This document shows, one piece after another, positions 1,341-52,141 of a DNA stretch of 64,000 nucleotides. The stretch's first letter is position 1; every line of letters begins with the position of its first letter. Both the position numbers and the translations under genes were made by a program. Location of the stretch: the NCBI GenBank assembly GCA_950295325.1, contig OX485808.1, positions 31,270,527 to 31,334,526 on the forward strand, written 5' to 3'. Source of the DNA: Polytrichum commune (lineage: Eukaryota; Streptophyta; Polytrichopsida; Polytrichales; Polytrichaceae). Below the pieces are notes generated by a model. The model was not told the DNA's origin and ran no database searches. It saw nothing but the letters and a program-made list of their open reading frames with translations.

Positions 1341-2149
1341 ACATTGGCCAATGTAACCTTTCTGGGCCCACACCATTGTTGATGGCAGCTCGTAACCTGG
1401 ATGGAGAGCTAGACGGTGTTGGCACTCCCCGGAGTGTTGCGGAGCCAATATCAGTGGGCATGGACACATTCGTGGAAGTTTCGCAAATCGCGGAGGAGGC
1501 CGTCCGGGATGTCATGCCGCAGCCATCCGCACCAGTGCCAGAACCATTGCCAACTACAACGGATGTGGTTGATGCTCATGTTTCTATAATATAGGTTCAG
1601 TTTACTGTTACAATGCAGGGTTCAGACTTGTAAACTTTGGTCCAATTTGTAACCTGGATGGGAGCTTCCTTTTCACCTAGAAGGATGAACATGTTGTAAC
1701 ATGGGCCTGTGTGTTCAACATAGTTGGAAAAGTTTGAACAATCTGTATGTACATCTTTAAAACTCTTTATGAAATTGTAACAAAGTTGGCCTTTACGCAC
1801 TTGTTTATGTTTTGTTTATGTCCTTGTAGTTGTGAATTTGATGTTCCAGAAAAGGCACATGCCTTATTCCTCGCAATGCTAATATCATTCCGCAAAGCAC
1901 ACTTGAGACATGTAAGAACGGCCAACTCGCATAACCAAACATGCATTCAGATCAACACATGTTACTGCACATACAAGTGAGAAAATAACCCATATTTGGT
2001 GTTTACTTAGCCATCATTTGAGGAGTCTTCACATGCTTACAGTCATACAGAGCACACGTGACTCTGTAAGTATGCTACTATGTAACACGCAATGGAACCC
2101 TACGGCGCCCAACTTGGCCTGAAAACTTTAATCGGTTTCTGGTATGCCT
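1341..2149. other. Intergenic; one GC-rich open frame, otherwise nothing recognised
   Basis: A plus-strand frame at 1337-1594 (85 codons, rich in Pro, Val, Glu and Thr near its end) lies in sequence clearly more GC-rich than its surroundings. It may be part of a MULE or a gene remnant. It has no recognisable domain. The rest is AT-rich and featureless. Confidence 0.3.
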
Positions 2150-2476
2150 TCAGCGGCGCGTTTGAAGGGGGGGGGGGCTCACGACTGGAGGTGGGGTTGT
2201 GAGCTGCCGCACAACCTCTGCATGTCGCCGCCTTAGTCGGGCAGTCTGCGCCGGCGATAGCAACCGCGGAACATCACTTGCTATGGATATGACAGCCGAA
2301 GGGGAATCTGGATTGTTGGACACATGTTGGTCCTCGTTGCATTGCCCAGGAGTTGTTGGAGGCGTGAAGAATTCGTTGTCGCTCGAACTGTCTTCAACGG
2401 GTCCAATGGCATCCGGACATCTACAAAGCCACTTCCAGACAGCCGCGCTAACCCGTATCACATCAAAAAGAGCCAT
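2150..2476 (-). CDS. Small hypothetical protein downstream of the MULE transposase
   Basis: A 108-codon frame on the transposase strand, 216 bp beyond its stop. It begins MALFDVIRVSAAVWKWLCRC and continues with an acidic Ser/Asp/Glu stretch. A Pro/Thr-rich tail ends in an Arg-rich cluster (RLRRRHAEVVRQL). No domain is recognised. It may be an accessory MULE frame, a 3' exon, or a small host gene. A run of ten G at about 2168-2177 lies at the coding end and could be error-prone. The composition (GC-rich, acidic then basic) looks more protein-like than random. Confidence 0.35.
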   Translation of the reverse strand: MALFDVIRVSAAVWKWLCRCPDAIGPVEDSSSDNEFFTPPTTPGQCNEDQHVSNNPDSPSAVISIASDVPRLLSPAQTARLRRRHAEVVRQLTTPPPVVSPPPLQTRR

Positions 2477-2692
2477 GCTAAAGGGAATAAAAACTTGCGA
2501 GAGACTACTATGGCGTTCCGTTCCCTAAAACCTATGCAGACATTGGAGGAGAAGGAAAGACGTCTCGCTGGAAACATGAAAGAGAAAGGCAAGTGGGAAC
2601 CTTATATACCCTAAACCTGACGACGTCATCCCACATGTGGGGCCTGCCGTAACATGTGGGCACCGTGTAACATACAGACTGTCATTGTTTAT

Positions 2693-5600
2693 TTAGGGAC
2701 GTCGTTCCAAAAAGTCTTTCCTGCGCTTCAAGGACATGTTACTGCCGTCATCATTGGGCAAGAAATGCAAGTCTGGTTGGGATGGCTCCACCAACCCATG
2801 CTTGAGTTGAGCTAGCAATGTCTGTTGTTTTCCCCGGACGACGTGAAAGTCAACGAGGAGGTGTCGTAGCAGGAAAGTGTCACCTGTGGCCGCGTCCATG
2901 AACTCTGTTGCAAGGTTCCGCACTTTTTTTTCCATGTCCTCCTCAGATGGTGTCACACGTTGGATGCCTTGAGCTGCATTTGGTGTGGGTGTGATCAAAC
3001 TCGGTCCGGTATCGTAACAATCATCTGGGAAATGAACAATCGGATCCAACATGTTACCACGGCCGCCCTCGGTTGTGCCTGCAAGGGACCCACAGTAACG
3101 TGTAATGGTTCCCTCTGCGAGGCTAGGGTGGAGTATCATGAGCACTTTAATCTGATGTTTGCAGATGTTTCCCTTCATTGCCCATGCGCAATCACAACAA
3201 CCCCACTCACAGTCTGGGTTGTACACAGAGTACGATTTAGCAGCATTGCTCTTCGAGGTTACCAATGCTGGTCCATCACACGCAATGGATAGAGTGACAC
3301 AACTGTCAGGGATTTCTCTCGCTTTGAGCACTGCATTGATAACGAATTGCTCCTGTTTCAAGTTGGGGACGAAGCCGTGTTGCTTCCTCATCGCCTGGTA
3401 CCAATAGTGGGAGAGGATTTCCTCTGTCAACTCGTATATGACCCAATCCAATCGACGTCCGTGTGCTCTTCCTTTTGAGGCTCGCAAAGTGGCCTTCAGG
3501 TTGGAGTGGTAGCTTTCAATTGCCGCATTAGTGTCTTGCCCAGCATATGGCAGGTTACGATGCCCCACAACCACGGGGAGGTCACTCCATTGTGAAGTTG
3601 AACACCACGTGCGACCAAAAAAAATCTTCTTTTGGTAAGTTGCACCACCAAAATGGGTCAAAATTTTATCAAATTGTTTTCATGAGTAGATATACACAAT
3701 ACCTATGACATAGTTAAAAGTGGTAACTAAATTTGATGATTTGTTTTTTTCATAAAACATACCGTTTCTAACTAGAATGATATAGAATTGAACTAAAACA
3801 ATTACTAAAAAAAATAAAGATGACTAAAAATTTCAAAAACATATAAAAAAGATACTATCAATGGTCATGTATATGTAGAAAAAATATCATAAATTTTAAA
3901 ATTATATATGGCATGTAATATAGGGGTAGCAAACTTTGTCCGCACGTGGTGTCAACTTGACAATGAAGTGACCTCCCCGTGCCCACAACCCACATATGGG
4001 TTTTGTCTGCCCATTGTTTGTTGAAGTACGCCCAGAAATTGCTGACAATGGGGAAGCTATCCATAAGAGCATTCAATTGCCGAAGAGCCCAAGGCCCCAC
4101 TTCATCTCCCTGGGGGCACTTTGTATCGTACATAATACGCCCCAATCCCTTTAGCACACCAGCCCGGATAGCATGGTCTTTAATTTTAGCCACCGCTTGT
4201 TTCAACCATGCACGACTAACATGCCACAAACACAATAATACTTTAACTCTTGGCCACACAGATTGCAACCCTCCAATCTCCGCCTGCGCACAATTTGTAA
4301 TGAAAGCATTCGGCATCCAACCTTCTTGCGCTGATGCCAATTTCATGGCGAGCGCCCTCATCCATGGTTCAAGATCAGGTTGCTTGGAACTAGAAGTGAT
4401 AATGTACGCCACGGGCACTCCGTTTAGCCAATCATCAAAGACCATCAAGGTGTACAGCGGAAACTACAACCACAAAGAAAAAGGAAAACATTAGAGCTTA
4501 GGTGATCATACATGTTACAGTGAACACTGGTGTAACATGTGTCTCAGTAAAGTACTTAGCTGTGACAGGCTAGAACTTGACAGTCCATGGAGAATATATG
4601 GAACAAACCTTGTTCTCATTAGTTGCAAACGTGGCATCAATGGAGACAACTTTTTTATGCCCGTGCTTGAGCATCATATCTTGTTGCCAAGACGTTTGGA
4701 TGCCTATCGTGAATGGCATGTTGTCACGTGTAATAGCTCCCCGAACATGTACACCAGACTCTTTATAGTAGAAAACGAGATGGGGATGTTCTTGCACCCA
4801 CATGCGCACAGACTTGGCATCATTGTTGTCACGTTTGTAGGTCTCTATTGCAAGGCGGCCAGTGACGTTACGGATGTCTTGGTCGCAAATGAAGAGATCC
4901 CGAGTGAGGTCCTCACCTCTTTCACACACTTCCAGGAACCTTTTCCTATGTTTTGCCATTATTTGCGGGATAGACAAACCCAGCCGCAAATGTTCCATGA
5001 TGAATTCCCGAACATGCGGTGAGAGATGACTCGAGAATCTGCTCTTATGGCCAGTCTTTGTGGCACCATGGCAGAAGCACCCTTTCAAGTTGACATGCTG
5101 CATCTGGTGGTATGTTACCTCAGCAACCGAGGGCTCAAGGTATAATCGCTTCACAAGAAAACCACATTGGCACACCCTTCGTTGGCCAAATCCCCGCATC
5201 CTCGAGGATGTGCGAGGACCTAAGTGACCCTTACCATTTGGAACGTATTTTCCTTTCGAGTCAAGTTTTCGTTTCTTCTTGTACATATCCTTTGTAACCA
5301 CTGGTATGTGCAAGGCATTGTCATTTGGTCCATACTGGCAGTGATACCTGGGAAGGAGTACAAGTGGTTGACTGGTTAGTCATTAACATGTTACACCACA
5401 AACATGTCTATGTGTTGTAACATTGGAAGATGCAAAATGGAATTGAGATCTCATGTTACAAGCACACTTGAGGATGGCAGAGTAGCTGTTCCAACGGGGG
5501 AACATTAATTTCCCCTGTTCGTTTGATGAAATGCCCTGGCAAACAAATTTGCAGGGAGCATCTGTGCGAGCCTCTTCACCCTTCACAAAATCTTGGACTC

Positions 5601-5889
5601 TTGCCCAGGGTATGTATGCAACCGAGACTGGCGCTTGAGTCCTGGAACCAGACCCCCTCCCTTTCAGCCGGATTTGCGGTGTCCACGTCAGATCACTGTG
5701 CATGAAGGTTCCTGCTTGAGGTATCTGAACCAAACTGCGCAGGCGCTCAAAATCCCCTTTGTGTGCCTCCTGGTATGTGGACTCGTACGAAGGATCCACA
5801 CCCATTGGCATGCGATGACTTGTAACGTGTCCGCCACTATGCAATTCGCTTTCGGAGTGAAGGACGACGCCAGCCACAGAGGATCCCAT
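2693..5889 (-). pseudogene. Mutator-like (MULE) transposase with SWIM zinc finger, interrupted by a hAT-type insertion
   Basis: Exon 1 is 5889-5468, the intron 5348-5467 (GT/AG), exon 2 5347-4609, the intron 4464-4608 (GT/AG), and exon 3 4463-2693 with a 410-bp insertion at 3572-3981. Removing the insertion and one copy of its 8-bp duplication leaves 451 in-frame codons in exon 3 and about 837 aa in all, so the frame was open until the insertion. The N-terminal third holds a Cys-rich DNA-binding-type region. The DDE core has VVSIDATF (first Asp), an FITNCAQAEI block where the family has a second Asp, LLCLWHVSRAW, and NAAIESYH (Glu). A SWIM finger follows (CDCAWAMKGNICKH). The second catalytic Asp reads Asn. 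MULE transposases cut and paste elements with 9-11-bp target duplications. I found no terminal inverted repeats for this element. Confidence 0.85.
3572..3981. mobile_element. hAT-type non-autonomous element (410 bp) inside the MULE transposase exon
   Basis: The ends are inverted repeats of about 40 bp with a few mismatches: left cacggggaggtcactccatt, right (reverse complement) cacggggaggtcacttcatt. It is flanked by the 8-bp duplication CCCACAAC at 3564-3571 and 3982-3989. An 8-bp target duplication is the hallmark of hAT transposition. The interior (3630-3930) is AT-rich and non-coding. Excision would rejoin the transposase frame at ...MWVVG/HRNLPYAG.... Confidence 0.85.
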
Positions 5890-6215
5890 TAAAGTTTAGT
5901 CCTGGTCAAAGTTTTCCGCTCATTTCCCTTCCGCTCATTTCCCGGGCAACACTGGTTCAGCATGCAATGAGATAATATACCTGGAAGCAATGAGTAGCGT
6001 GATGAACATAAAGCGCCAAACACAAGGTAGGGAGTGCACATAGGTGTAACGTGGCTGCCAAAGCACATTGAGAGGACGCCAATCGCTTTGAGTAGATAAA
6101 GACCGCGTGCTGTGAAGACATCATTGTTACGGTCGCATGAGTTTGACAAGAGAGAGTGGAATGTGGCTGCAGAGAGGACTAAGCAGTAAATGAACATATT
6201 TCAATGAGGCAGAAG
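5890..6215. other. Upstream flank of the MULE transposase; nothing recognised
   Basis: This would hold the transposase promoter. No clear TATA box or terminal inverted repeat was found. Confidence 0.3.
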
Positions 6216-6225
6216 CAATGTTTGA

Positions 6226-6530
6226 CTGTAGATCTGATGAGGAATATGGGAAGCAAGTGAAATGTGATGAGGAGTATGGGAAGCAAGTCAGATCTGATGA
6301 GCAATGTGGGAAGCAAGTCAAATGTGATGAGGAGTATGGGAAGCACGTCATATCTGATGAGCAATGTGGGAAGCAAGTCAGATCTGACTTGCTTGATATG
6401 GGAAGCAGGTCAAATGTGATGAGGAGTATGGGAAGCACGTCAGATCTGATGAGGAAGGTGGGAAGCAGGTCAGATCTGATGAGGAGCTTGCGAAGCAAGT
6501 CAGATCTGATGAGGACCTTGGGAAGTGATT
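6226..6530. repeat. Minisatellite, ~30-bp unit, about ten copies
   Basis: Units alternate between gatctgatgaggaatatggg and aatgtgatgaggagtatggg, each followed by aagcaagtc or aagcacgtc. The 30-bp period is a multiple of three, so several frames stay open on both strands. None looks like a real gene. Confidence 0.85.
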
Positions 6531-6589
6531 GTGACCACCATGTGCGAAGTGCACGAACATATACCTTCACAACATCATTCTTGGCTTGG

Positions 6590-7330
6590 CATCACTACAT
6601 GGAAGACACCCAAGTGGCGCCCTAAACCAGATTGTTTAGTAAATGCACATGTTACGATCAATCAGAATCACAAAAGCAAAGGAACACTGATACTCACGCT
6701 CAATGAGGAGGTCTTGTCCGTGTATGCTGACCGAATCATTGCTGAAATCGCATCACACCTTGAACTCACTCTAGTGCAACTGAAAGTTGGAGCCTCTATT
6801 GAATCAGCAGGTTACAGACAATCATCAAGGGTGGGTAGGTGCACGTTTGAAAAGACACACTCCCCGAGGGCGGCATTCTTCCCCGCATGGATGGGTGAGT
6901 GAAGGCCATGGATGGGTGAGTGAGGGCCATGGCCATGGGTGAGTGAAGGCCATGGTCATGGCACCGTGGTGGCATGGGCGGGGACACTGTGGACTTCCGG
7001 CGACAGGGTGGCCGCTGGTACAGCGTGGCCGGCGCCACGGTGGAGAACGCGACAGGCTGGCAGGGAGAGATGACAGCGTGGATGCTGGGAGCACCGGGAT
7101 CACAAGCAGAACCGGGCGGGCCGCGCTGTGCAGGTTTCGAGGACTGACACGGGTCTGCTGTGCCTCGGAGTTCGGGCTGAAATTAAGACATTTGGGTTTC
7201 GTAATGTTAGGGCGTAAGAATTGTGTTGCGGAGCTCAAAAATCGAGCAAAAGCTTAAAACTCCCACACAAAAGCTTTTTGTGTCAAAACATCGTGGCGAA
7301 GAGACCCTGTGTTCCTTCTAGTGTCTTCTC
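6590..7330. other. GC-rich stretch with a short ~22-bp tandem repeat
   Basis: About three copies of a catggatgggtgagtgaagg-type unit lie at 6888-6955. Positions 6960-7170 are markedly GC-rich and could be an old exon or CpG-rich repeat. No domain is recognised in any frame. Confidence 0.4.
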
Positions 7331-14219: not shown

Positions 14220-14877
14220 TAAATAACCTCACCAACAAGGCTAGCACTAGACTCAACTGCCAAAAAAAAAACTTCCACTGGTCATTGACTCAAATTTGAA
14301 TAGAGATTTCTAAATAGCAAGCATGAAAAATAACCTGAGAGGCATTGAAGTATTCTTGACGCCCTTGCCTTATGAATGCATGCCCTTGAAATTAGGCAAG
14401 GGTGTTCAAAGGAGCACTTCACAAAGTAGGAGGCTTAAACACATAAGAAAAACAATAGTAGCAGCAATTGCAATTTGGTATAGGCATAACCATAATCAGT
14501 GCTAAGGTCGCATATATTGAAGACAAGCGTGGTGATTCAAGATCACATTAGGTTTTAACTTTGCCATCACTCTAAGGTAGCTTGTTTTCCAGTCCCACAT
14601 ATGCTCTCATACAAGCAATAACAAGGGAAGGTAATGAACCTAATAATGCGGTATAATAATTGGCATAAACATTTTTTTGCATCTCCTAGGCACATGACTT
14701 ATTGAGATCCTCGCACAATATTCTTACGGCTTGCAAAAGACACCAATCAATTCTAAGAGTATCGAGATATTGAAGTGCAATTTGGAGCTACTAGTGAAGA
14801 TCAACACTTTTATCACCTAGTACCACTCCATGCCATAAAGTTTCCATGTATATCTCAACAACTCTGACTACCCCATG
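14220..14877. other. Intergenic, 3' flank of the NLR gene; nothing recognised
   Basis: AT-rich sequence without repeats or domains that I can identify. Confidence 0.4.
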
Positions 14878-15301
14878 AAAAGTTTTTCAAACATGTCAAC
14901 ATTCCAAATCATTGCTCCACGTGTTTCAAAGCTCAACAGTTTCAACAATCAAGTTCCTCCAAGGTTATGAGGTTGCTCAATGTGGAGGGAAACACTTCCA
15001 ACGCCTCACACTCCCCCAAGAAAAGTTATTTAAAACGTGTCAACATTCCAAATCCTTCGCGCACGTGTCTTAAAGCTCCACATTCGGAAAAATTGAGTTC
15101 CTCCAAGGCTATGAGGTTGTTTAATCCTAAATGAAACACTTCCAACGCCTCACACTCCGACATGCCAAGCTCTTTCAAACATGTCAACGTTCCAAATCCT
15201 TCGGGCATATGTTTCAAAGCTTGACATTGATAAAACTAGAGCTCCTCCAAGACTATGAGGTTGCTCAATCCAGAGGGAAACACTTCCAACGCCTCACACC
15301 C
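14878..15301 (-). pseudogene. Decayed LRR units beyond the stop codon of the NLR gene
   Basis: Three more 48-residue LRR units continue past the stop at 15302-15304. They carry several nonsense codons: a Trp codon of the consensus has become TAG at about 15233-15235, and further stops lie near 15030 and 14940. They also show more substitutions than the units upstream (for example a 63-codon open stretch at 15217-15026). They were probably coding before the stop arose and have drifted since. Confidence 0.8.
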
Positions 15302-18300
15302 TTACATGATAAGTTTTTTCAAACATGTCAACCTTCCAAATCCTTCGGGCACGTGTTTCAAAGCTTGACAATCGGAGAAATCGAGTTCCTCCAAGGCTAT
15401 GAGGTTGCTTAATCCGGAGGGAAACACTTCCAACGTCTCACACCCCCACATGACAAGTTTTTTCAAACATGTCAACGTTCCAAATCCTTCGGGCACGTGT
15501 TTCAAAGCTCGACATTGACAAAACCAGAGCTCCTCCAAGGCTATGAGGTTGCTCAAGCCGGAGGGAAACACTTCCAATGCCTCACACTCCGACATGTCAA
15601 GCTTTTCCAAACATGTCAACGTTCCGAAACCTTCGGGAACGTGTTTCAAAGCTCGACATTTGGAAAAGTTGAGCTCTTCCAAGGCTATGAGGTTGCTCAA
15701 TCCGGAGGGAAACACTTCCAACGCCTCACACCCCCACATCGAAAGTTTTTTCAAACATGTCAACGTTCCAAATCCTTCGGGAACGTGTTTCAAAGCGCGA
15801 CATTGGGAGAAATTGAGTTCCTCCAAGGCTATGAGGTTGCTTAATCCCGAGGGAAACACTTCCAACGCCTCACACCCCCACATGCTAAGCTTTTTCAAAC
15901 ATGTCAACGTTCCAAATTCTTCGGGCACGTATTTCAGAGCTCGACATTCGGAGAAATCGAGTTCCTCCAAGGCTATGAGGTTGCTCAATCCGGAGGGAAA
16001 CACTTCCAATGCCTCACACCCCCACATCGAAAGTTTTTTCAAACATGTCAACGTTCCAAATCCTTCGGGAACGTGTTTCAAAGCGCGACATTGGGAGAAA
16101 TTGAGTTCCTCCAAGGCTATGAGGTTGCTTAATCCGGAGGGAAACACTTCCAACGCCTCACACCCCCACATGCTAAGCTTTTTCAAACATGTCAACGTTC
16201 CAAATTCTTCGGGCACGTATTTCAGAGCTCGACATTCGGAGAAATCGAGTTCCTCCAAGGCTATGAGGTTGCTCAATCCGGAGGGAAACACTTCCAATGC
16301 CTCACACCCCCACATCGAAAGTTTTTTCAAACATGTCAACGTTCCAAATCCTTCGGGAACGTGTTTCAAAGCGCGACATTGGGAGAAATTGAGTTCCTCC
16401 AAGGCTATGAGGTTGCTTAATCCGGAGGGAAACACTTCCAACGCCTCACACCCCCACATGCTAAGCTTTTTCAAACATGTCAACGTTCCAAATTCTTCGG
16501 GCACGTATTTCAGAGCTCGACATTCGGAGAAATCGAGTTCCTCCAAGGCTATGAGGTTGCTCAATCCGGAGGGAAACACTTCCAATGCCTCACATCTCCA
16601 CATGCCAAGTTTTTTCATACATGTCAACCTTCCAAATCCTTCGGGCACGTGTTTCAAAGCGCGACATTGGGAGAAATTGAGTTCCTTCAAAGTTATGAGG
16701 TTGTTCAATCCGGAGGGAAACACTTCCAATGCCTCACACCCCCACATTGAAACTTCTTTCAAACATGTCAACGTTCCAAATCCTTCGGGCATGTGTTTCA
16801 AAGCGCGACATTGGGAGAAATTGAGTTCCTCCAAGGCTATGAGGTTGCTCAATCCGGAGGGAAACACTTCCAACGCCTCACACCCCCACATGCTAAGCTT
16901 TTTCAAACATGTCAACGTTCCAAATCCTTCGGGCACGTGTTTCAAAGCTCGGATTTTGGAGAAATCGAGTTCCTCCAAGGCTATGAGGTTGCTCAATCCG
17001 AAGGGAAACACTTCCAACGCCTCACACCCCCACATGCTAAGCTTTTTCAAACATGTCAACGTTCCAAATCCTTCGGGCACGTGTTTCAAAGCGCGACAGT
17101 GATAAAACCACAGCTCCTCCAAGGCTGTGAGGTTGCTTAATCCGGAGGGAAACACTTCCAACGCCTCACACTTCCACATGCCAAGCTTTTTCAAACATGT
17201 CAACGTTCCGAATCCTTCAGGCACGTGTTTTAAAGCGCGACATTGATGAAACCAGAGCTCCTCCAAGGCTATGAGGTTGTTCAATCCAGAGGGAAACACT
17301 TCCAACGCCTCACACCCCCACATGCTAAGCTTTTTCAAACATGTCAACGTTCCAAATCCTTCAGGCACGTGTTTCAAAGCGCGACATTGGGAGAAATTGA
17401 GTTCCTCCAAGGCTATGAGGTTGCTCAATCCGGAGGGAAACACTTTCAATACGTCACATCTCCACATGCCAAGCTTTTTCAAACATGTCAACGTTCCAAA
17501 TCCTTCGGGCATATGTTTCAAAGCGCGACATTGATAAAACCAGAGCTCCTCCAAGGCTATGAGGTTGCTCAATCCGGAGGGAAACACTTCCAACGCCTCA
17601 CACCCCCACATGCCAAGCTTTTTCAAACATGTCAACGTTCCAAATCCTTCGGGCACGTGTTTCAAAGCACGACATTGGGAGAAATTGAGTTCCTCCAAGG
17701 CTATGAGGATGCTCAATCCGGAGGGAAACTCTTTCAACGCGTCACATCTCCACATGCCTAGTTTTTTCAAACATGTCAACGTTCCAAATCCTTCGGGCAC
17801 ATGTTTCAAAGCGCGACATTGATAAAACCAGAGCTCTTCCAAGGCTATGAGGTTGCTCAATCCGGAGGGAAACACTTCCAACGCCTCACACCCCCACATG
17901 ACAAGTTTTTTCAAACATGTCAACATTCCAAATCCTTCGGGCACGTGTTTCAAAGCGCGACATTGGGAGAAATTGAGTTCCTCCAAGGCTATGAGGTTGC
18001 TTAATCCGGAGGGAAACACTTCCAACGCCTCAAACCCCCACATGCTAAGTTTTTTTAAACATGTCAACGTTCCAAATCCTTCAGGCACATGTTTCAAAGC
18101 TCGACATTCGGAGAAATCGAGTTCTTCCAAGGCTATGAGGTTGCTCAATCCGGAGGGAAACACTTCCAACGCCTCACACCCCCACATGCTAAGCTTTTTC
18201 AAACATGTCAACGTTCCAAATCCGTCGGGCACGTGTTCCAAAGTGCGACATTGATAAAACCAGAGCTCCTCCAAGGCTATGAGGTTGCTCAATCCGGAGG

Positions 18301-21300
18301 GAAATACTTCCAACGCCTCGCACCCCCACATGCTAAGCCTTTTCAAACATGTCAACGTTCTAAATTCTTCGGGCACGAATTTCAGAGCTCGACATTCGGA
18401 GAAATCGAGTTCCTCCAAGGCTATGAGGTTGCTCAATCCGGAGGGAAACACTTCCAATGCCTCACATCTCCACATGCCAAGTTTTTTCATACATGTCAAC
18501 GTTCCAAATCCTTCGGGCACGTGTTTCAAAGCGCGACATTGGGAGAAATTGAGTTCCTTCAAAGTTATGAGGTTGTTCAATCCGGAGGGAAACACTTCCA
18601 ACGCCTCACACCCCCACATTGAAACTTCTTTCAAACATGTCAACGTTCCAAATCCTTCGGGCACGTGTTTCAAAGCGCAACATTGGGAGAAATTGAGTTC
18701 CTCCAAGGCTATGAGGTTGCTCAATCCGGAGGGAAACACTCCCAACGCCTCACACCCCCCCATTCTCAGCTTTTTCAAACATGTCAACGTTCCAAATCCT
18801 TCGGGCACGTGTTTCAAAGCTCGACATTTGGAGAAATCGAGTTCCTCCAAGGCTATGAGGTTGCTCAATCCGAAGGGAAACACTTCCAACGCCTCACACC
18901 CCCACATGCTAAGCTTTTTCAAACATGTCAACATTCCAAATCCTTCGGGCACGTGTTTCAAAGCGCGACAGTGATAAAACCAGAGCTCCTCCAAGGCTAT
19001 GAGGTTGCTTAATCCGGAGGGAAACATTTCCAACGCCTCACACTTCCACATGCCAAGCTTTTTCAAACATGTCAACGTTCCAAATCCTTCGGGCACGTGT
19101 TTTAAAGTGCGACATTGATGAAACCAGAGCTCCTCCAAGGCTATGAGGTTGCTCAATCCGGAGGGAAACACTTCCAACGCCTTACACCCCCACATGCTAA
19201 GCTTTTTCAAACATGTCGACGTTCCAAATCCTTCGGGCACTTGTTTCAAAGCGCGACATTGATGAAACCAGAGCTCCTCCAAGGCTATGAGGTTGCTCAA
19301 TCCGGAGGGAAACACTTCCAACGCCTCACACTCCCACATGCCAAGCTTTTTCAAAGATATCAACGTTCCAAATCCTTTGGGCACGTGTTTTAAAGTGCGA
19401 CATTGATGAAACCAGAGCTCCTCCAAGGCTATGAGGTTGCTCAATCCGGAGGGAAACACTTCCAACGCCTTACACCCCCACATGCTAAGCTTTTTCAAAC
19501 ATGTCGACGTTCCAAATCCTTCGGGCACTTGTTTCAAAGCGCGACATTGATGAAACCAGAGCTCCTCCAAGGCTATGAGGTTGCTCAATCCGGAGGGAAA
19601 CACTTCCAACGCCTCACACCCCCACATCGAAAGTTTTTTCAAACATGTCAGCGTTCCAAATCCTTCGGGCACGTGTTTCAAAGCGCGACATTGGGAGAAA
19701 TTGAGTTCCTCCAAGGCTGTGAGGTTGCTTAATCCGGAGGGAAACACTTCCAACGCCTCACACCCCCACATCGAAAGTTTTTTCAAACATGTCAACATTC
19801 CAAATCCTTCGGGCACGTGTTTCAAAGCGCCACATTGGGAGAGATTGAGGTCCTTCAAGGCTATGAGGTTGCTCAATCCAGAGGGAAACACTTCCAATGC
19901 CTCACACTTCATAATTTGAAGTTTTTTTAAGGATTTGAATGTTGCAAAGCCATTGGGAATTTTTCTTAGAGTTTGGCAATCATAAATTCGCAAACATTCT
20001 AAAAATACCATATGGTCAATTTCAAAGATAAAATTCTCGAAGTTATCACAATTTACTAGTAATATGCCTTTGAGATACGGAAACGTGAATGATCCTGATG
20101 AACTAAAATCAAGAAAATCACAATTATAGAGTTGTAAAACACACATTTGATGTAGAAATGTTTGGGCAATGTTCCAAAAGTTGTCAACGAAAGTCTTTTG
20201 TTGTTCAATAGACTTGTCATTTTCAAGTGAAAAGTGGATCTTCAACCATCGTAGTCGGACAGAATGCTTTAAGATATCAAAAAGAACATCCACATCATCA
20301 CAATTTTGAACGCTCAATAATCGGAGGTTTGGCACGTCTTTCATCTTAAAACTCCCCTCATATGTGGACTTATGCTCAAGCCTTTCAAATGACATGCCTT
20401 CTACATGTTCTATACTCTGCATGCGCAAACAAATGACATGTTATAAATCAATATTTTCAACAATTTATTCAAGTTTGTTTCCATGTTTTGGATTTAAGCA
20501 TGACAACATTGACAAAAACAACTAGGTACACATTCAATCGACACCTATTGGACATAAATTCCAAATATGTTCAAATACCTTAAACTTCCTTGATATAACA
20601 TCAAGCTTTATTTGCACAGTTTAGGACGGGGGTTTGTTAACCTAGTTCTACTTGCAAAACATGCTCAGAATAAGATGTTAAACTTGATTGAGACCTATTT
20701 CCACACTCGACTTCTGTTGTTGCAAAATTCATGAGGTTTATGTACCTTATTTCAAAGATGTATGAATTTGATACTACAAGGATTATATCAAAAAACTATT
20801 ATGTTGATCAATATATTGGATAATGATTTGTAGTGGACCATGGAGAACTTTGGTCATGGATACTTTCCAATTTTCTCTAGGATGATCAAGAGTGGGTTTT
20901 TTTACAATGTTTGCATCCTCGCTTGTGGCATAATCTAATTCTTTTGTAGTGGAAATCAAAGGGGTGTGTTTGGATGATACTAACCTTTTGCTTACAATGG
21001 TCGGTGAATGTTCCCAAACAAAAATTCATAAGTCGAGTTTCTTTGAATTCTCCCAAGTTTGCGAGCATACGACCCATGGCACACAATTGATCATGAATTT
21101 TCAATATTCCACCATCCACTGTCACAAGTGACTTGCTATTTAAATTTTCCAAGGTTTTTTTAGCAATGTTGGCATCAAGGTCAGATATTCTAATCATGTC
21201 TTCCACCCAAAAATAAAAACCTGGAAGGTATGGATCTAGTTGGTTGAAAAAACAAGAGATGTCAATAAACATGTTTCTTTCTCTATCATCTAGCTCATCA

Positions 21301-23895
21301 AAGCTTATCCTCAATTTCTCCCATATTTGTTCATCTGGACTTCCATCATGTCTAGCCTTCAACAATCTATGCAACGTTCTCTCCCATATTCGTAATCGTC
21401 TCTCCCCATGCATGCATTTGCCCATTACCTCCAAACTCAATGGAAGCCCACCACAAGCATTCACAATCTTCTCAGCTACATGTTCTAAACAAGGCTCACA
21501 TGATCGGTCGGTCCCAAAGGCATGCATGGAAAATAGTTCCATAGGTTTATCACCCTCAAGGGTCTTCATGTTTACGATGCCGGCCTTGGGTATATATCGT
21601 CCAAAATATTGCCAACCACGAGAACTTGCAATCAACTTACTGCCATTAACATCTTTGAGTATGTGATCACCTAATAGTTGATGTAAGTCAATATGTTCGC
21701 TCACATTGTCTACAACAATGAGAATATTTTTTGTTTTGCAAATATGTTCCATCGTTATTCTTGCTTCTACCAATGTTTTTACTTGAGGTGCCACTTGCGT
21801 ATCTTCCAACTTGTGCTTGAATATAAAAGTACATGTTTCACCCTTAAAATCACCTACAAAGCATGTCCCATCAAACCGGTGGGAGATATGTACACTTAGA
21901 GCATTGGCCAATGTTGACTTGCCGATTCCACCCATGCCAACGATCCCCAAACTACCAATTTTTTGCAATTGCCTTTCGAATTGAAGTATTTGGTCTTTGA
22001 TACCAATCAATCTCTTAGGTCCATTCCTGGTATTATTGACCTACAAGAATTTCAACATCCAATATTAGCTTTATAAAAAATTACATGTCAGATCATAGCA
22101 TTTTCCAAACTAACCCAAAGATTCAATATTACTAATCTCACTTAAGATTGAAATATGATATGCATACTATATTTGACAGTGAGCAAAATAATATCAACAA
22201 CACAATTACCTTATCAAGAGTTTGATGTAATAATGGGTCGTTGCATGTATCTTGAGGCAAACTACCATATTCTCCAATTTTGGGCATAAATCGTAACCAG
22301 AAGCTCAGGGTCACAAAAACTTGAAACAATAAGACTATTTGACAAAAGGCACTATGAATAATTCTCACGAAGTCGGTCCACCATTGCTTGGGATTCATCA
22401 ACAAACCATAGCTCCATGATGGTTCTCTATGTTGAAGTATTTCATCCATAGAAATGGCATTCTTGAACATTGCGTTCTTCAATGACCTTAATGTATTGCA
22501 AATGTCAAGAAATGTGGGCCTCTTTGATGGATCCAAAGACCAACAATCATGTATTAATGACTTCAATTCCTTCGAGCAATTTTCCGGTAGCTTTGGTCTC
22601 TTGCCATCATGTATAAACTTCCAATAATCTTTGGGTGAAATCTCACCAAAAGGTTTTTCTCCTGAAAGAATCTCAAAACTCGTCATGGCAAAACTAAATA
22701 CATCGGTTTTAAATGCATTTACTTCCAAACTTCGATTTTCAAATGCCTCCGGTGCCATATATTGAAAGGTGCCGTAACGAAATTGACCTGTGGGCACTTG
22801 TGGTGATTCCTTTACTTCAATTTTTGATATACCAAAATCAATCAACTTCACGTGCACATATTCAAGGCGACCATCTGACTTTGAGACATCCATGGAAGTC
22901 ACAACAACATTGTTGGGCTTCAAATCGCGATGTGCTACCTTCATATCATGAAGGTAGCACATTCCGCTTGCAATTTGTAACATAATATCCATTTGAACGG
23001 CTTCCGTGATTAAAGCTTTCTTTTCCACCAATAATTTGCACAAGTCCATCTTTCCTCGTTCCATGACTAGTTCAAATTTCTCAATCTCTCCAACAAGAAA
23101 ACCACAACAAAAAAAATTGATAATGTTTGGATGATTTAATCCCCCCAATATACTTGCTTCTTTCAATAAAACTCTCTTGTATTCAAGGTTTGGAACTTCC
23201 ATCACCTTTGTTGCAGTTTCAAGGCCTACCCATTTAGTAGGTAGTATAGCACATCCCTTTGTGCCTGTTACACCCAAAGGAAGAGATAATTCTTCTGAAT
23301 GCTTTGAATGTGGATAATCAGAAGGGAAAACAATTTTATCCAATTCTTCACCTCGAACCAATTGTAGACCTTTCACTCGTTTCAATAGGTATTGTGCAAG
23401 TGCACGATCCTCAATTGTGCCAATTTTCGAATGCTCTAAGAGGATTTTGTGTAGTGAATTTTGGTCCTCTTCAACTTCATCAATGGATGCTGGATAGAAT
23501 GTGGCACAACTTTGAGTCTGAAGAATATTTTGGCTTTGACCTCGATAACACATTTGAGATATGTCACACATTGTACGGAAACAACATTCCAAGTCCAAGA
23601 GGAGCTCTCTAAAAGCCTCTTTGTTGTTTATTTGCAATATTGCATTATAGCACCAATCTTCCTTGCAGCATTCATCAACCACATTTTTTGCTTTGTTCAC
23701 AATCCAAACTAAATCGTGTTCAACTTCAGTGAAGGCATCCCTCCGGGCGCCTTTGTTGATCTTCTGAATTGCTTCCACACCCTTTCGGAAGTTTGCCACC
23801 AAATTGTTGCATTGCTTTTCATTCAAAAGAATCGACCTTGATAATCTTATCATATCTTCCACAATCCCCAAAGATTTCTTCATGTTGTCTGACAT
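15302..23895 (-). CDS. Protein kinase-NB-ARC-LRR immune receptor (PNL-type NLR), about 2618 aa
   Basis: Three coding exons: 23895-22210, 22040-20985 and 20416-15302. The introns are 22041-22209 (AAG/GTAATT...TTGTAG) and 20417-20984 (AAG/GTTAGT...ATGCAG), both phase 0. Residues 1-115 are a Leu/Lys/Glu-rich helical region. A kinase spans about 205-475: ATK Lys near 230, HRDLKPNN at 322, DFG at 353, APE at 381, all intact. A strongly hydrophobic stretch follows at about 511-535. The NB-ARC has P-loop GMGGIGKST near 598, ILIVVDNV near 670, CGGLPLS, FIDISCFF and an MHD-like IHD. The LRR exon starts with ~160 irregular residues, then 32 units of 48 residues (64 LRRs, LTCLKKLSMWGCEALEVFP / LIALEELNFSQCRALKHVPE). 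NLRs sense pathogen effectors and trigger cell death. The start at 23895 (MSDNMKK) is preferred over 24006 because an AG acceptor at 23991-23992 suggests a spliced 5' UTR. Confidence 0.85.
15304..19923 (-). repeat. 144-bp tandem array encoding paired 24-residue LRRs, 32 units
   Basis: The period is exactly 144 bp: the LKKL motif recurs 1536 residues apart over 32 intervals. A higher-order 288-bp block is repeated essentially identically three times at about 15723-16586. A longer block (16580-17100) recurs at 18440-18975. A 288-bp block with the private variant catgtcgacgttcc occurs at 19140-19250 and 19430-19540. Because 144 is divisible by three, long antisense open frames appear; they are shadows. 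Confidence 0.95.
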
Positions 23896-36167: not shown

Positions 36168-38338
36168 GATATATTAACATCCCACAAATTCTCCATTGAC
36201 TAGAGTAGAGTAAACATATGTTTCGGCTTAGTCAAAATTGAGTCCCACCTTGATCAAAATGCATATACCATGTAGATTGTTGGTGGGAACCATACCGGGA
36301 ATAGGCACATCTAATATACACTAATAATGCCATGACACATGTCCCTAGTTGCCAGTGCTAAAGCTCCTCACCGAATGAGCGGTTATGGCAAACTCTAGAC
36401 ATTGGTAATATGTTCGGGCCAAATTATGACTTAGAAAATTCATAGTGATCTCAATTTAAAAAATAAAATTACCAACAAAAAATTGTAATCCGCATGAATA
36501 TTATATTTCCAGACGGGAAATATTTGCGTTGCCTTATACCTCTCTAGATCCGGCGCATAATCTCTTCAATGAACAGTTATGAGCACCTCTACTATAGTGT
36601 GGGTTACCGTTTGGAGTTACATAGTGATATAACTTTTTATCAACATTTTTTTTTAACCAAGTAAGTTACATCATGTTCTTTGATGTGCATCACCCGTTAA
36701 TCTGATAAGCATACTTCTTGAATTAATGGGGCTTTATTTGTATGAATTAGGATTATTTAGACTTAATTACATTTAATCACACTTGATTACTTTGAGTGTG
36801 TATGAATACTTTGTGAAAGCAGAAAGTATTAATTAAAATGTTATAAAATGAACACACTAGAAATAAATCACTGAATTTAGTCCCATTTTAGAATGACAAA
36901 GACCCTTTGACCGGTAAGTCACGAAATTTATAACCTCAATGCTAATGAGGATTTTGCAATGTTTTTGACTTCCAAATTAATTACATGCTTTATTGACGGT
37001 GTCACTTTGAAAAGGAAATCCTAATCAATCATTCACTTACTCAATGGAAGTGAACATATATATTAGATTTTGAACCTTAAAAATGAAGTGCACTGAATAT
37101 GGGTTATATGGACAAGCGGCCTTCAAGAATGCGAGGGTCGGGCCACAGTCCAGAGGTCGAGGCTTTGGCTTTTTCGGTGCCGCCCCTACCCACCGTCCTA
37201 ATGTGTTGGATATATTTAGAAAGATCCCGGAATTGGGAGCCCCGATGCCTTTTATGAAAACCTTATGGGCAACTAAGAGCGTCGCCACCAACCCGGGCAT
37301 GGGGCATGCCAATGTTCAAAATGAGGCATCCCGGGTTCTTAGGTGGCGGCACCAACATAATTTAAGCCCAACAAATGTCCGGTCTCCCATAATTTAGACT
37401 CGGCTCGGGTATAGTAAAGACCTTCCCCAACCATAAATGGTTCATATAATGGACCTCCTCCGGCCCACCAAGAGATTACTTTAATATCAAATACTCCAAT
37501 ATCCTACTTTATCCCATGTCCGATAATAGGTGTCGTCGTCTTATTGATTGCTTCCTAATTACACCGGGGGTATGCTTAGACTTTGGTGGGCTTTGACTCA
37601 AGACGAGCTACCCCGTCCAAGATGGAGGGCTCCCAAAAGGTATAAACTATGATATACTCTATTTGACGTGTACCCGATCTGGTGGGGATGCTCTAAGGAA
37701 CCAAGATTGTTATAAGAAAGTCATGTCCACGTTCGCCAACTTGTCTCGGGGTTGACAGACATCCGTAGGATGTAGATACGATGGACGGCTGAGATACTCC
37801 CACCCCTCCCGTTAGTGAGGCCGTTAGTGAAGGCTCCGTGCTCTTAAGCCGACAGCCTGCAACCTTTCCACAGCCGACCCTCGGATAGCTGCAGTGCATT
37901 TGTTTCCATTGAACTCGTGGTATTGCATTCGTGCCGGTGTTAGCAGAGTTGTTCACTATAAGTTGGGGGTGGAGATGATGTTGGGCATGATGGCGTTGAA
38001 GAAGGATGCATGGCATCATGATCCCGGGTTTTAGTTTATACCACATTGGCAAGAGCTTGTTGGACATCGATCCAGTGTGACTTTTGTTTCTCAACATTCA
38101 CAATGGCATCGAAGAGCTGCAACCGGATGAGTACTCTCTCGTTCGAGTGAGGTAGATCGCGGTTTCTACATCGTCCGAACCAAGAGTGCATGGGCGAAGG
38201 CAATCGCAAGGCAACAGAAAGATCAGTGGCACTAACATGTGAGGCATTGACGGATGCTACTGACGGCAGAATCTTGACGAGGTCCAAAGGCAAGAACCCA
38301 TTCTCATTTCGAAGTGAAGTAACGTCGGTGGGGTACAA
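36168..38338. other. Intergenic; contains a fragment of the Mutator-type element
   Basis: Positions 36888-37137 match the interior of the 32332 and 44855 elements (for example agcggccttcaagaatgc). Positions 37138-37690 are more GC-rich and look like another repeat ending ggggatgctctaa, whose left end I cannot place. Minus-strand frames at 37693-38449 have no recognisable domain. The one at 38036-38449 overlaps the start of the membrane-protein gene and is probably non-coding. Confidence 0.4.
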
Positions 38339-39664
38339 ATGAAGGGGGGTTTGGAATGGCCGCGCAGGTTGCGTTGGTGTGCGTGGTTGGATCGTCTGAT
38401 TTTCTTGGCCATAGTCATCAGTTTGTGGTCCGTTGTGTCTGCTGCTCAAACGTCAGGGACATGCGAGTGTGATCAACAGTGCCCTAAAACAAGGGAGTTG
38501 GTGACAACTGTTTGGGGGGGTGCCGTCACCGTCTTTGTGCTCTCCTTTGATGTCTGGAGGACATGGAAGACAATTCTGCATTTTAATTTTAGGGGGAAAT
38601 TCGGTCAATTTTGGGGGGAAATTTTGGGGGCAATTGTGGTCATTATAAATCCGGTTTTCATGCTTCTTCTGATTGTTGAGTATGCGGCGTGGAGATATCA
38701 CATGATGCGGAGAATGCCTGGGTTTACAGTTTTGTCCTTGTTGTCACCATGGACGAAAGATCCTACAAAGTTCACATACAGTTGTGAAGTTGTCATCACT
38801 GTGCCTACGGTGATTTCTATTCCTAACAACTTTGTTTCTTGGCACATGCCGAGGCTTTCAGAAGCAATGGTGATTGGTCGTGTACCAGAAGAATCACCGG
38901 AGACCAAAAAGGAAAAAGAAGGGAAGGGAGGAGAAGAATCACGGGAGACCAAAAAGGAAAAAGAATCACATAACATTTGCCTTTCTAACGAGGGAAAAGA
39001 CGTTTTGTTGCAAATGGTTGTTCTTCCTCCATACGATCAACTCAAGGTCTTGCAAGGACGTTCTGGGTGGGCCACAATTATATCCTCAGTGCAGAGTATG
39101 GGATATATATATGGTGTTGTGCTTCGGACTATACAAGGACTCCCGGTGAGTCCAATTGAAGTTGTTGCGTTGACATTGAGCATACAAATCTTGATCAAGG
39201 CTCTCCTACACAATATTGTGAGTTTATGTTATATGCCCCTTCATGTTTATTTGACACATGACCAAGCACAAACTTTTGTAGATAGGTGTGACGAAATTGT
39301 GAAGAACATTCACTATGAAGTTCCTATGAACCTCGGTTGGGTTACGGGCCCATTCGTGGTTATAGTCTTGTTGATTTCAAGCGTGGCGACTTATTACGCC
39401 ACACATGTGTCATGGAGCATCATGATTGTCCCAATAATGCTAACACTTGTTGGATTACATTTACAACTATTCAGCATCGGCATACTTCAATATAATGAGC
39501 GTCAGGATAATCCTGCAATGCTCGGTCTAATCATGTGCACCATGGTAAATGCAACATCGTACATTCTTGCATTAGTTGTTACAATTAAATATTGGAAGGT
39601 TGATAGGTTGAATGTGAAATCTTCTAGCATGCTAGCTCAAATTTTTCCATACATTGGTCAATAA
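38339..39664 (+). CDS. Multipass membrane protein of unknown function, 441 aa
   Basis: An uninterrupted single-exon frame. An N-terminal hydrophobic segment (LIFLAIVISLWSVVSA, about residues 20-36) is followed by a Cys-rich pattern (CECDQQCP). Further membrane segments lie at about 58-70, 90-113, 262-300, 330-355, 360-385 and 395-420. A charged loop at about 180-212 contains a tandem duplication (RETKKEKE / PETKKEKE). The pattern of a WGGAVTVFVLSFDVWRTW block near the N-terminus and a GLPVSPIEVVALTL block before a helix pair is reminiscent of large, uncharacterised membrane-protein families common in fungi; this is a weak impression, not an assignment. The first Met at 38339 gives the longest frame, but an upstream exon cannot be excluded. 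Being intact amid decayed repeats suggests it is a functional or recently functional gene. Confidence 0.7.
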   Translation: MKGGLEWPRRLRWCAWLDRLIFLAIVISLWSVVSAAQTSGTCECDQQCPKTRELVTTVWGGAVTVFVLSFDVWRTWKTILHFNFRGKFGQFWGEILGAIVVIINPVFMLLLIVEYAAWRYHMMRRMPGFTVLSLLSPWTKDPTKFTYSCEVVITVPTVISIPNNFVSWHMPRLSEAMVIGRVPEESPETKKEKEGKGGEESRETKKEKESHNICLSNEGKDVLLQMVVLPPYDQLKVLQGRSGWATIISSVQSMGYIYGVVLRTIQGLPVSPIEVVALTLSIQILIKALLHNIVSLCYMPLHVYLTHDQAQTFVDRCDEIVKNIHYEVPMNLGWVTGPFVVIVLLISSVATYYATHVSWSIMIVPIMLTLVGLHLQLFSIGILQYNERQDNPAMLGLIMCTMVNATSYILALVVTIKYWKVDRLNVKSSSMLAQIFPYIGQ

Positions 39665-50775: not shown

Positions 50776-52141
50776 GGGCGGCTTTATACACGGCCTGGGG
50801 CCGGCCGGAGCACCGGCCCGATGAAGCCCTCAATCCGGCCCCACTTTATGAACTTTTTTGGGGCCCAAGCTTGTCACATGTAAAGTGGTGAGGCCCGATT
50901 CTAGGGCCTGATGGTCTTGAGGGTTAAGTTTCGTAAAACATGGTCAATGTGCGGTATTCTCGACAATTAAGTTTCACAACACTTAATACTATGGGGGATG
51001 ACATCTAAAGGCTTGTGGTTAGTGAATTGAAATTGGGTCCCACTAGACTAAATTGGGGCCTTTGAATCTATTCCGGCATCAAAATGCTTCTATAAATTTA
51101 TCTACCATGTTCAATGGATTAACCGATGCGTGTGGTTTAGGAGGCACACCATATTTTTTATTCACGGCTTAAATGTTTCATTTTGTCTTAAGTGTATAAT
51201 TAGCACCTTAATTATTGTGTTATTAGCCTAATGCTATCATATTTATACTAATTGTTGTCTTATTAGACTAACCCATCGCCTAAGCCGTACAATATGCTTG
51301 ATTAAATGCTTAAATGTTTCATTTTTATCTTAAGTGTGTAATTAGCACCTTAATTGTTGTCTTATTAGCCTAATGCTACCATATTTGTGCTAATTATTGT
51401 GTTATTGGACTAACCCATTGTCTAATGCACGCCAAATTCTTAATTGACAACTTAAAATGTTATATTTTTATCTTAACTATATGATTAGCGTCTTAATTGT
51501 TGTGTTATTACCCTATTGCTAACATATTTATACCAATGGTTGCCTTATTAGACTAACCCATAGCATGTCATACCATGTGCTTGATTAAATGCTTAAATGT
51601 TTCATTTTATCTTAATTGTGTGCTTAGCACCCTAATTGTTGCCTTATTAGTCTAATGCTAACATATTTTAACTAATTGATGCAGTATTAGACTAATGGTT
51701 GATGCAGTGATTAAATGCTTGAATCTTTCATTTTTATCTTAAGTGTGTGATTAACGCCCTAATTGTTGCCTTATTAGTCTAATGCAATCATATTTATGCT
51801 AATTGTTGTGTTATTAGAGGAGTGGAGTGAAGAGGAGAGGAAAAGAAATTACCCCCTAATGATTAACGGACAAGATGAGCTCAATCCAACGGAGGAGCCC
51901 AATCGGGCCCTAGATGGGAGTTCGGGCCAAGGAAAAGCTCGTCCCGAACTCTCATCTAGGGCCCGATAGTTTGGCGCCAAAATTGTGCCACCTAGGACTC
52001 CACATGGGATGAGCGAGTGTTCGGGCCGGCCCCAAGTATAAAGCCCCTTGGGCCCAATTTAATTAAATCGAGCGATCCTATTGGCCTAAATTTTGAGGGT
52101 TCGGGCCGGCCCTCAATCCGGCCCCAACTATAAAGTGGCCC
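50776..52141. mobile_element. GC-rich terminal-inverted-repeat element, ~1.37 kb, inside the ~150-bp array
   Basis: Ends: gggcggctttata and (reverse complement) gggccactttata, followed on both sides by ggggccgg-rich sequence. It interrupts an array unit: ...ccaatacaactaa / aatatcaacatttggg rejoin to match neighbouring units. The exact target duplication is ambiguous (TAA on the left). The interior holds about five copies of a ~140-bp tandem repeat (51165-51820) and a strong hairpin at 51902-51970. Confidence 0.7.
51902..51970. repeat. Hairpin-forming inverted repeat
   Basis: atcgggccctagatgggagt, then ttcggg, pairs with the complementary cccgaactctcatctagggc, then ccgat, leaving a loop of about 18 bases; one mismatch in the stem. 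Confidence 0.8.

Follow-up and report, generated by a model that had tools for sequence, protein, structure and literature searches.

A kinase-NLR gene of the moss Polytrichum commune with a homogenised leucine-rich repeat array that turns over between paralogues

The gene and its domains

A stretch of 64,000 nucleotides of the Polytrichum commune genome (the window; C6:31270527-31334526 of a 407.8-Mb assembly in 64 contigs, seven of which are 42-78 Mb long) carries on its minus strand a gene for a nucleotide-binding leucine-rich repeat receptor (NLR), in which a protein kinase and an NB-ARC domain precede a long tandem array of leucine-rich repeats (LRRs). The original prediction had placed a kinase-NB-ARC-LRR gene at positions 15302-23895 of the window. 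These coordinates are exact: the gene model runs from an ATG at 23895 to a TAA ending at 15302 and encodes 2618 amino acids in three predicted exons, and Pfam finds the kinase, NB-ARC and LRR domains (Table 1). The splice sites are predictions; both introns would be of phase 0 and lie at the borders of the kinase with the nucleotide-binding site (NBS) and of the NBS with the LRRs.

The motifs of these two domains, kinase and NB-ARC, had been described as intact. This is true of the NB-ARC domain (P-loop GMGGIGKST, GGLPL and IHD) and of the kinase lysine (ATKV), HRD, DFG and APE, and it is not true of the kinase glycine loop, which is degenerate across the subfamily when the window exon is aligned with 11 paralogous kinase exons. 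The NB-ARC domain resembles that of TIR-NLRs (TNLs). Its best PDB sequence match is Roq1 (E 8.6e-29), a TIR-NLR, and Pfam reports the winged helix WHD_ROQ1. Judged from its sequence, the gene belongs to the PNL (PK-NBS-LRR) or Pkn-NLR class, as indicated by the kinase-NB-ARC-LRR order, the phase-0 introns and the TNL-like NB-ARC domain. The PNL class was defined in Physcomitrium, where phase-0 introns lie at the domain borders (PMC3352924; also PMC3991678; here and below, published work is described from parts of the cited papers).

Table 1. Features of the kinase-NLR gene and its repeat array, in window positions
Feature	Position	Strand	Basis
Exon 1 (predicted), N-terminal helical region and protein kinase, 562 aa	22210..23895	-	gene model; Pfam Pkinase/PK_Tyr_Ser-Thr
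N-terminal ~125 aa, possible MLKL/HeLo-like helical bundle (weak)	23521..23895	-	profile and Pfam matches
Protein kinase domain, aa 213-469	22489..23259	-	Pfam; HRD, DFG, APE present, glycine loop degenerate
Hydrophobic segment aa 512-534, between kinase and NB-ARC	22294..22362	-	best 19-residue mean hydropathy 2.03
Intron 1 (predicted), phase 0	22041..22209	-	gene model
Exon 2, NB-ARC and Roq1-type winged helix, 352 aa	20985..22040	-	gene model, Pfam, PDB match
Intron 2 (predicted), phase 0	20417..20984	-	gene model
Exon 3 (predicted)	15302..20416	-	Pfam LRR families
Exon 3 start, irregular non-homogenised LRR region, 169 aa	19910..20416	-	unit parsing
32 coding 144-bp units (48 aa, 64 LRRs); stop TAA 15302-15304	15302..19909	-	TRF, gene model, unit parsing
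Units 7-11, similar to units 20-24 (2-6 differences per 144 bp)	18326..19045	-	unit comparison
Units 20-24, second copy of units 7-11	16454..17173	-	unit comparison
Units 24-29, two-unit block x3 (0-2 differences per unit)	15734..16597	-	unit comparison
Units 33-35, decayed, stop codons, beyond the open reading frame	14870..15301	-	unit parsing

Structure of the repeat array

Tandem Repeats Finder (TRF) reports at 14883-19907 a period of 144 with 34.9 copies, 88% matches and 0% indels (score 7530). The DNA array comprises 35 units in 5.04 kb, of which 32 are coding, the 32nd terminating in the stop codon; the other three continue in the same register beyond it, which accounts for the TRF count. 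The predicted 32 units of 48 residues, or about 64 LRRs in 144-bp register, are thus correct for the coding part and too few for the array as DNA. As the 3' end of the array decays past the stop, the C-terminus of the protein would be set by whichever unit first gained a stop codon.

Each window unit is a dimer of two unlike 24-residue LRRs, A and B (identity 0.84 for A-A, 0.88 for B-B and 0.33 for A-B). The 31 stop-free units have a mean pairwise identity of 89.5% in DNA (range 81.9-100%) and 85.7% in protein, above the repeat identity of about 80% by which the fungal NWD type is recognised. Near-identity of the units, as originally described, is found locally, the longest exact repeat being 458 bp, and does not extend to the array as a whole. 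The most similar units are not adjacent but stand at offsets of 2 and 13. Besides the blocks listed in Table 1, units 3-4 are repeated as units 5-6, and units 15-16 as units 17-18.

Tandem repeats of this kind are known to misassemble from short reads (PMC12222747), and the copy number might then be an artefact of repeats collapsed or expanded in assembly. This is hardly credible, as the array is only 5 kb long, its units carry private variants and no exact repeat in it exceeds the length given above; moreover, the same architecture recurs at 27 loci, in an assembly of long contigs.

An AlphaFold2 model of units 7-14, made with an alignment of window sequences only, puts the strands of each unit at positions 20-22 and 44-46 (mean pLDDT 76.7, pTM 0.73). 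The PDB matches that Foldseek lists for this model are mostly LRR proteins, with E-values down to 7.7e-9 and TM-scores of only about 0.2-0.6. The Pfam labels TyeA and EndoS on the window LRRs are taken as LRR cross-matches. An antisense open reading frame (ORF) of 527 amino acids at 15519-17102 was rejected as a gene: long antisense frames likewise lie over the arrays of two other NLR loci (L043 and L044), and they are expected where a stop-free unit is repeated.

Related loci in the genome

In the genome at least 116 matches, some of them fragments, are found with the NB-ARC exon (best 115 of 443 candidates scored), and at least 83 with the kinase exon (best 77 of 744 candidates scored). The start of the LRR exon has 141 matches listed among the best 150 of 2327 candidates; 111 were kept, some of whose frames probably belong to broken genes, and 30 were dropped as distant, partial or internal. 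The dropped rows include repeat matches inside counted frames and a longer frame, of 1733 aa, from the distant NLR L044. With an open frame of 1712 aa the window LRR exon is the eighth longest of those kept, the longest having 2276 aa. The claim of an unusually long LRR domain is therefore not borne out. Outside the clade of the window gene, the 72-bp LRR of L043 (C4:11944400-11954399) is repeated 77.4 times, at 95% matches, over positions 1477-7052 of that locus, so that its LRRs outnumber those of the window gene.

Apart from the window, 26 loci of the clade were fetched by their NB-ARC identity of 51-95% to the window gene. They represent 25 genes, as L002 and L003 are parts of one array; the presence of an adjoining kinase exon was checked for part of them. 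All 27 loci contain 144-bp arrays, of 6 to 50 units, and in L002 the best-scoring TRF period corresponds to three units. The open frame with the most units ends inside the array or at most 45 aa after the last complete unit in 26 of the 27; the main frame of L002 continues into other DNA. No long C-terminal domain follows the array in any of the 27 clade loci.

The halves of the L002/L003 array are about 10.8 kb apart (C5:26495516-26506301), probably separated by an insertion. Many more NB-ARC exons, 53-56% identical to that of the window, lie near the window gene at C6:28.86-31.50 Mb.

Turnover of units between paralogues

The evidence for turnover comes from paralogues within one genome, and neither the unit pairs nor the related loci are independent of each other. 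For 82% of the 692 stop-free units the most similar unit lies in the same array, where 1-6% per array would be expected by chance. The share ranges from 37% (L013) to 100% (L023) and is 93% in the window.

Closely related loci illustrate how far the interiors have changed. L005 and L006 share with L008 98.7% and 98.5% identity in the 5' flank, and 99.1% (427 bp) and 96.8% (665 bp) in the 3' flank. Despite these near-identical flanks, there are 22, 37 and 24 units among the three, and no unit of L005 or L006 comes within 2 differences of any L008 unit. At up to 4 differences, L005/L008 has 1 colinear unit pair and L006/L008 has 2; allowing up to 6 gives 7 in each. The window and L001 show the same behaviour: their 5' flanks are 95.6% and their 3' flanks 91.5-97% identical, yet none of the 35 window units lies within 4 differences of any L001 unit, and only 2 colinear pairs are found at up to 6. 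Their last, decayed units (unit 35 in the window), on the other hand, differ at only 5 positions. Such a conserved last unit (4-5 differences) beside an interior that is not conserved is seen in window/L001, L001/L003 and L010/L011; in other paralogue pairs the last units are divergent, partly because the arrays were parsed to different ends.

These observations show that the units undergo concerted evolution between paralogues in one genome, and that the interior of the array has lost most of its positional homology while both flanks stay alignable. The suggestion that the array is homogenised by exchange of units is upheld by them and by the duplicated blocks inside the window array. The number of units differs between paralogues, and it may also vary between individuals, as originally suggested.

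The pair L010/L011 has kinase exons identical over 1689 bp, and 24 and 7 units. The first 1200 bp fetched of its NB-ARC region are identical, and identity then runs through 98.5, 99.5, 96.0 and 93.2% towards the array. Such a tract of 100% falling to 93-96% near the array is better read as gene conversion, and the pair was rejected as timing evidence. L010/L011 and L032/L033 (C2:69.54-69.57 Mb) mark a likely tract of gene conversion between neighbouring paralogues.

Arrays in other NLRs and in cell-surface-type LRR proteins

Twelve NLR loci outside the clade (L027 and L039-L049) form a small, non-random sample. L027 has 41% NB-ARC identity; L039-L042 come from the eight loci that score highest with Pfam NB-ARC, and L039-L041 of these have a unit family in common; L043 and L044 were picked for their long frames, and L045-L049 by hand from the Pfam list. 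In 11 of the 12 (L027 and L039-L048) there are 72-bp LRR arrays with 80-95% matches and 11-77 copies; in L049 TRF shows only a dinucleotide run and no LRR array. The winged helix is CNL-type (WH_DRP) in L042 and Roq1-type in L043 and L044. The homogenised array is thus common among the NLRs sampled and the doubled 144-bp unit is the mark of the clade itself, so that the window gene is a typical member rather than a lone giant. Together with the clade, 37 of the 38 NLR genes in the sample carry an array.

Four LRR proteins with the N-terminal cap LRRNT_2, chosen for long frames (L050-L053), were assigned by this cap to the cell-surface receptor type; a kinase domain is present in one of the four within the 2.6 kb fetched. 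None of the four has a tandem repeat at a TRF score of 50, and the mean identity of their motif-picked repeats is 37-45%.

Variation on the LRR face

Amino-acid change in the arrays concentrates on the concave-face strand positions, while the rest of the unit is under purifying constraint. Nonsynonymous diversity (pN) at the x positions of the strand motif xxLxLxx exceeds that at other sites in all 27 clade loci, by a median factor of 3.5 and by 5.2 in the window. When the labels are rotated through the 48 positions of the unit, the true phase ranks first in 21 of the 27 loci and first or second in 24; rotation 24 is about equivalent to the true phase in a unit of two LRRs. The signal is carried by six of the ten xxLxLxx positions, namely 22, 46, 24, 25, 48 and 1 (mean pN 0.24-0.43). 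Outside the xxLxLxx sites the ratio of nonsynonymous to synonymous change (dN/dS) is below 1 at every locus (median 0.28; window 0.26). As in the comparison of arrays, neither unit pairs nor paralogues count as independent here. In the eleven 72-bp arrays of the other NLRs the exposed positions are also the more diverse, and the true phase is first of 24 in seven arrays and second to fourth in four.

The array might instead be a structural spacer or an oligomerisation scaffold, homogeneous for the sake of a regular superhelix and not for evolvable recognition. Its nearly invariant core positions would agree with this, as would the regular solenoid that similar LRRs in series form in the predicted model. 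A scaffold, however, predicts constraint at the exposed strand positions, which as a group are more variable than the rest in all 27 loci; a purely structural role is accordingly quite improbable.

Another explanation is that most of what is seen reflects neutral, satellite-like instability by slippage and unequal exchange, in a gene that is dying or tolerant of it. The ends of the arrays look as such a process would leave them: the 3' end has clearly diverged in five profiled arrays, that of the window, where it carries stops, and four others, and the 5' end stands out as well in L004, L010 and L014 (though in neither the window nor L008). Internal frameshifts and stops occur in several paralogues, and one array is split into the two distant halves L002 and L003. 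Neutral instability alone, however, would hardly leave the 32 coding units of the window in exact register without an indel or an internal stop, nor explain the low dN/dS outside the exposed sites, the focus of change on the phase of the binding face, or the lack of tandem arrays in the four LRRNT_2-type proteins of the same genome. Although more probable than a structural scaffold, it is unlikely.

The N-terminal region

A consistent but weak signal suggests that exon 1 is MLKL-like. When a profile is built from 11 exon-1 sequences, the PDB entry that it matches best is 6lba_A (160 bits); the N-terminal helices (i-Evalue 0.03) and the pre-kinase segment are matched in colinear order. The window exon-1 sequence alone places 9p9u (EGFR) first, 6ka4 second and 6lba third; 6lba and 6ka4 are taken here to be Arabidopsis MLKLs. 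The only PDB match of the N-terminal profile by itself is to the N-terminus of 6lba, and it is weak (E 0.005).

Pfam gives a mixed picture. MLKL_N matches three of the 11 members weakly (best E 0.0021), the window member not being among them. In the 11 N-termini DUF1221 is found in one, RPW8 in two, DUF7792 in three and SPOB_ab in six, and the N-terminus of the window protein matches SPOB_ab and RPW8, both under their cut-offs. Genome-wide, 32 MLKL_N matches are listed, the best of them elsewhere (1.2e-9); three are PNL kinase exons (E 0.28-0.51). Three exons of 578-580 aa that lie directly 5' of other NB-ARC exons have a weak DUF1221 match (E 0.11-0.47). A single-sequence AlphaFold2 model of exon 1 was discarded (pLDDT 35.8). 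The hydrophobic stretch at 22294-22362 (minus strand) is the IIHSAFCQIVLLFQVFVTL region, and close paralogues are similar there.

Proposed evolution of the sensor

By combining these observations, it is possible to propose how the receptor evolves. The gene is quite probably an NLR of the PNL class, with a sensor that evolves by unequal exchange and probably under selection on its concave face, as in fungal HET-D and HET-E. Unequal crossing-over and duplication within the array would supply new orders and numbers of units, and mutation at about six of the 48 positions of each unit would supply new surfaces. Selection to recognise changing targets, which might be effectors or altered self proteins, would then retain the useful combinations. 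Recognition of a target would free the NB-ARC switch, and the N-terminal kinase module would become active, leading to defence or cell death.

Several observations weigh against this proposal. Stops or frame breaks lie inside the arrays of many paralogues, so that some of the arrays look non-functional. Nearest neighbours within the same array are few in L013, L011 and L009 (37-49%). The true phase ranks only fourth in L006 and L008 and sixth in L011; xxLxLxx positions 19, 20, 43 and 44 vary little (mean pN 0.03-0.15), and some positions outside these ten, among them 10, 13 and 38, vary as much (0.14-0.19). Where gene conversion has acted, flanks can suggest too recent a split, which is why L010/L011 was left out of the timing. 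Finally, dN at the exposed sites exceeds the dS of the exposed codons in only 6 of the 27 loci (0.28 in the window), while it exceeds the dS of other sites in 19 and that of all sites in 16. As omega at the exposed sites shifts with the dS yardstick, the data establish constraint on the frame and a focus of change on the binding face, and do not prove positive selection.

If the pattern holds, new recognition surfaces arise in more than one NLR class by the shuffling of near-uniform intragenic repeats, as they do in fungal allorecognition genes. The pace of receptor evolution would then be measurable in one genome, where the flanks date the split of two paralogues and the orders of the units record the exchanges. 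A warning also follows for surveys of bryophyte NLRs by short reads, in which the number of LRRs may be miscounted.

A wider reading is more doubtful and is offered tentatively. The entire repertoire of NLR sensors in this lineage may turn over in the manner of a satellite, with TNL- and CNL-like members built of 72-bp units and the kinase class of dimerised 144-bp units, whereas cell-surface LRR receptors would not; and the kinase class may combine an evolvable sensor and an MLKL-like executioner in one chain, which would link the plant MLKLs with the moss NLRs. An MLKL-like N-terminus, if true, would give kinase-NLRs a testable route of cell killing. Runs of similar LRRs occur in Physcomitrium database proteins. 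Published descriptions exist of plant MLKLs and of how kinase-type NLRs have expanded in mosses (PMC9950082, PMC10952240), and a moss kinase domain expressed in Nicotiana gives a modest, variable response (PMC11218826). By titles and abstract openings, no report of an MLKL-like N-terminus in moss kinase-NLRs was recognised among the papers listed in searches of the open-access literature, which is no proof of absence.

Comparison with known systems

The closest relatives in the literature are the Physcomitrium genes PpKNL/PpC24 (PMC3352924, PMC3991678, PMC11218826), which share with the window gene the domain order, the TNL-like NB-ARC domain and both phase-0 introns. The PpKNL loci measure about 3.3-6.1 kb from the start of the kinase domain to the end of the LRRs (Table 1 of the published work), compared with about 8.0 kb for the window gene. 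The parts of these three papers that were compared do not mention homogenised LRR arrays in the Physcomitrium PNL genes. Nor was any report of such arrays in bryophyte NLRs recognised among the papers listed in searches of the open-access literature, by titles and abstract openings, which is no proof of absence.

The WD arrays of HET-D and HET-E, fungal NLRs of the NWD type in Podospora, undergo concerted evolution, are polymorphic in number and are under selection at interface residues (PMC1805685, PMC4986451, PMC12222747). The window array is like those of HET-D and HET-E in its near-uniform sensor repeats, its concerted evolution, the change in their number and the variation on the interaction face. 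The repeats of the fungal NLRs, however, are WD40, ANK or TPR, no LRR being found there in the parts compared, and as the window repeats are LRRs, the gene works like the fungal NLRs of high internal conservation and is not a member of that group. The fungal isolates tabulated have 2-15 WD repeats, whereas the window gene has 32 units; moreover, the number polymorphism in fungi is between isolates, and here it is between paralogues of one genome only. An LRR-NLR of high internal conservation is also mentioned for the sea urchin (PMC12222747, citing Hibino 2006); it shares the homogenised LRRs of an NLR with the window gene and differs in belonging to an animal lineage.

Among plant resistance genes, melon Vat, flax M and tomato Cf share intragenic LRR duplication that is credited to unequal exchange (PMC8012345). 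In melon Vat NLRs the R65aa LRR motifs, between one and seven in number, occupy a short LRR segment, whereas most of the fetched clade members have whole arrays of dozens of units. More generally, repeats diversify faster within proteins than between orthologues (PMC5120217).

Other features of the window

A bacterial promoter scan upstream of the kinase-NLR gene gave 6 promoters against a shuffle mean of 6.5 and is uninformative. On the minus strand at 3858-4463, an ORF of 201 aa with a MULE transposase domain (E 1.4e-07) apparently belongs to a Mutator-like element; the ORFs adjoining it at 2693-5379 (minus strand) have no Pfam match. Neither has an ORF of 448 aa with hydrophobic stretches on the plus strand at 38318-39664. 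Further tandem repeats detected by TRF lie at 51167-51818 (142 bp, 4.7 copies) and at 59473-59790 (43-46 bp, about 7 copies).

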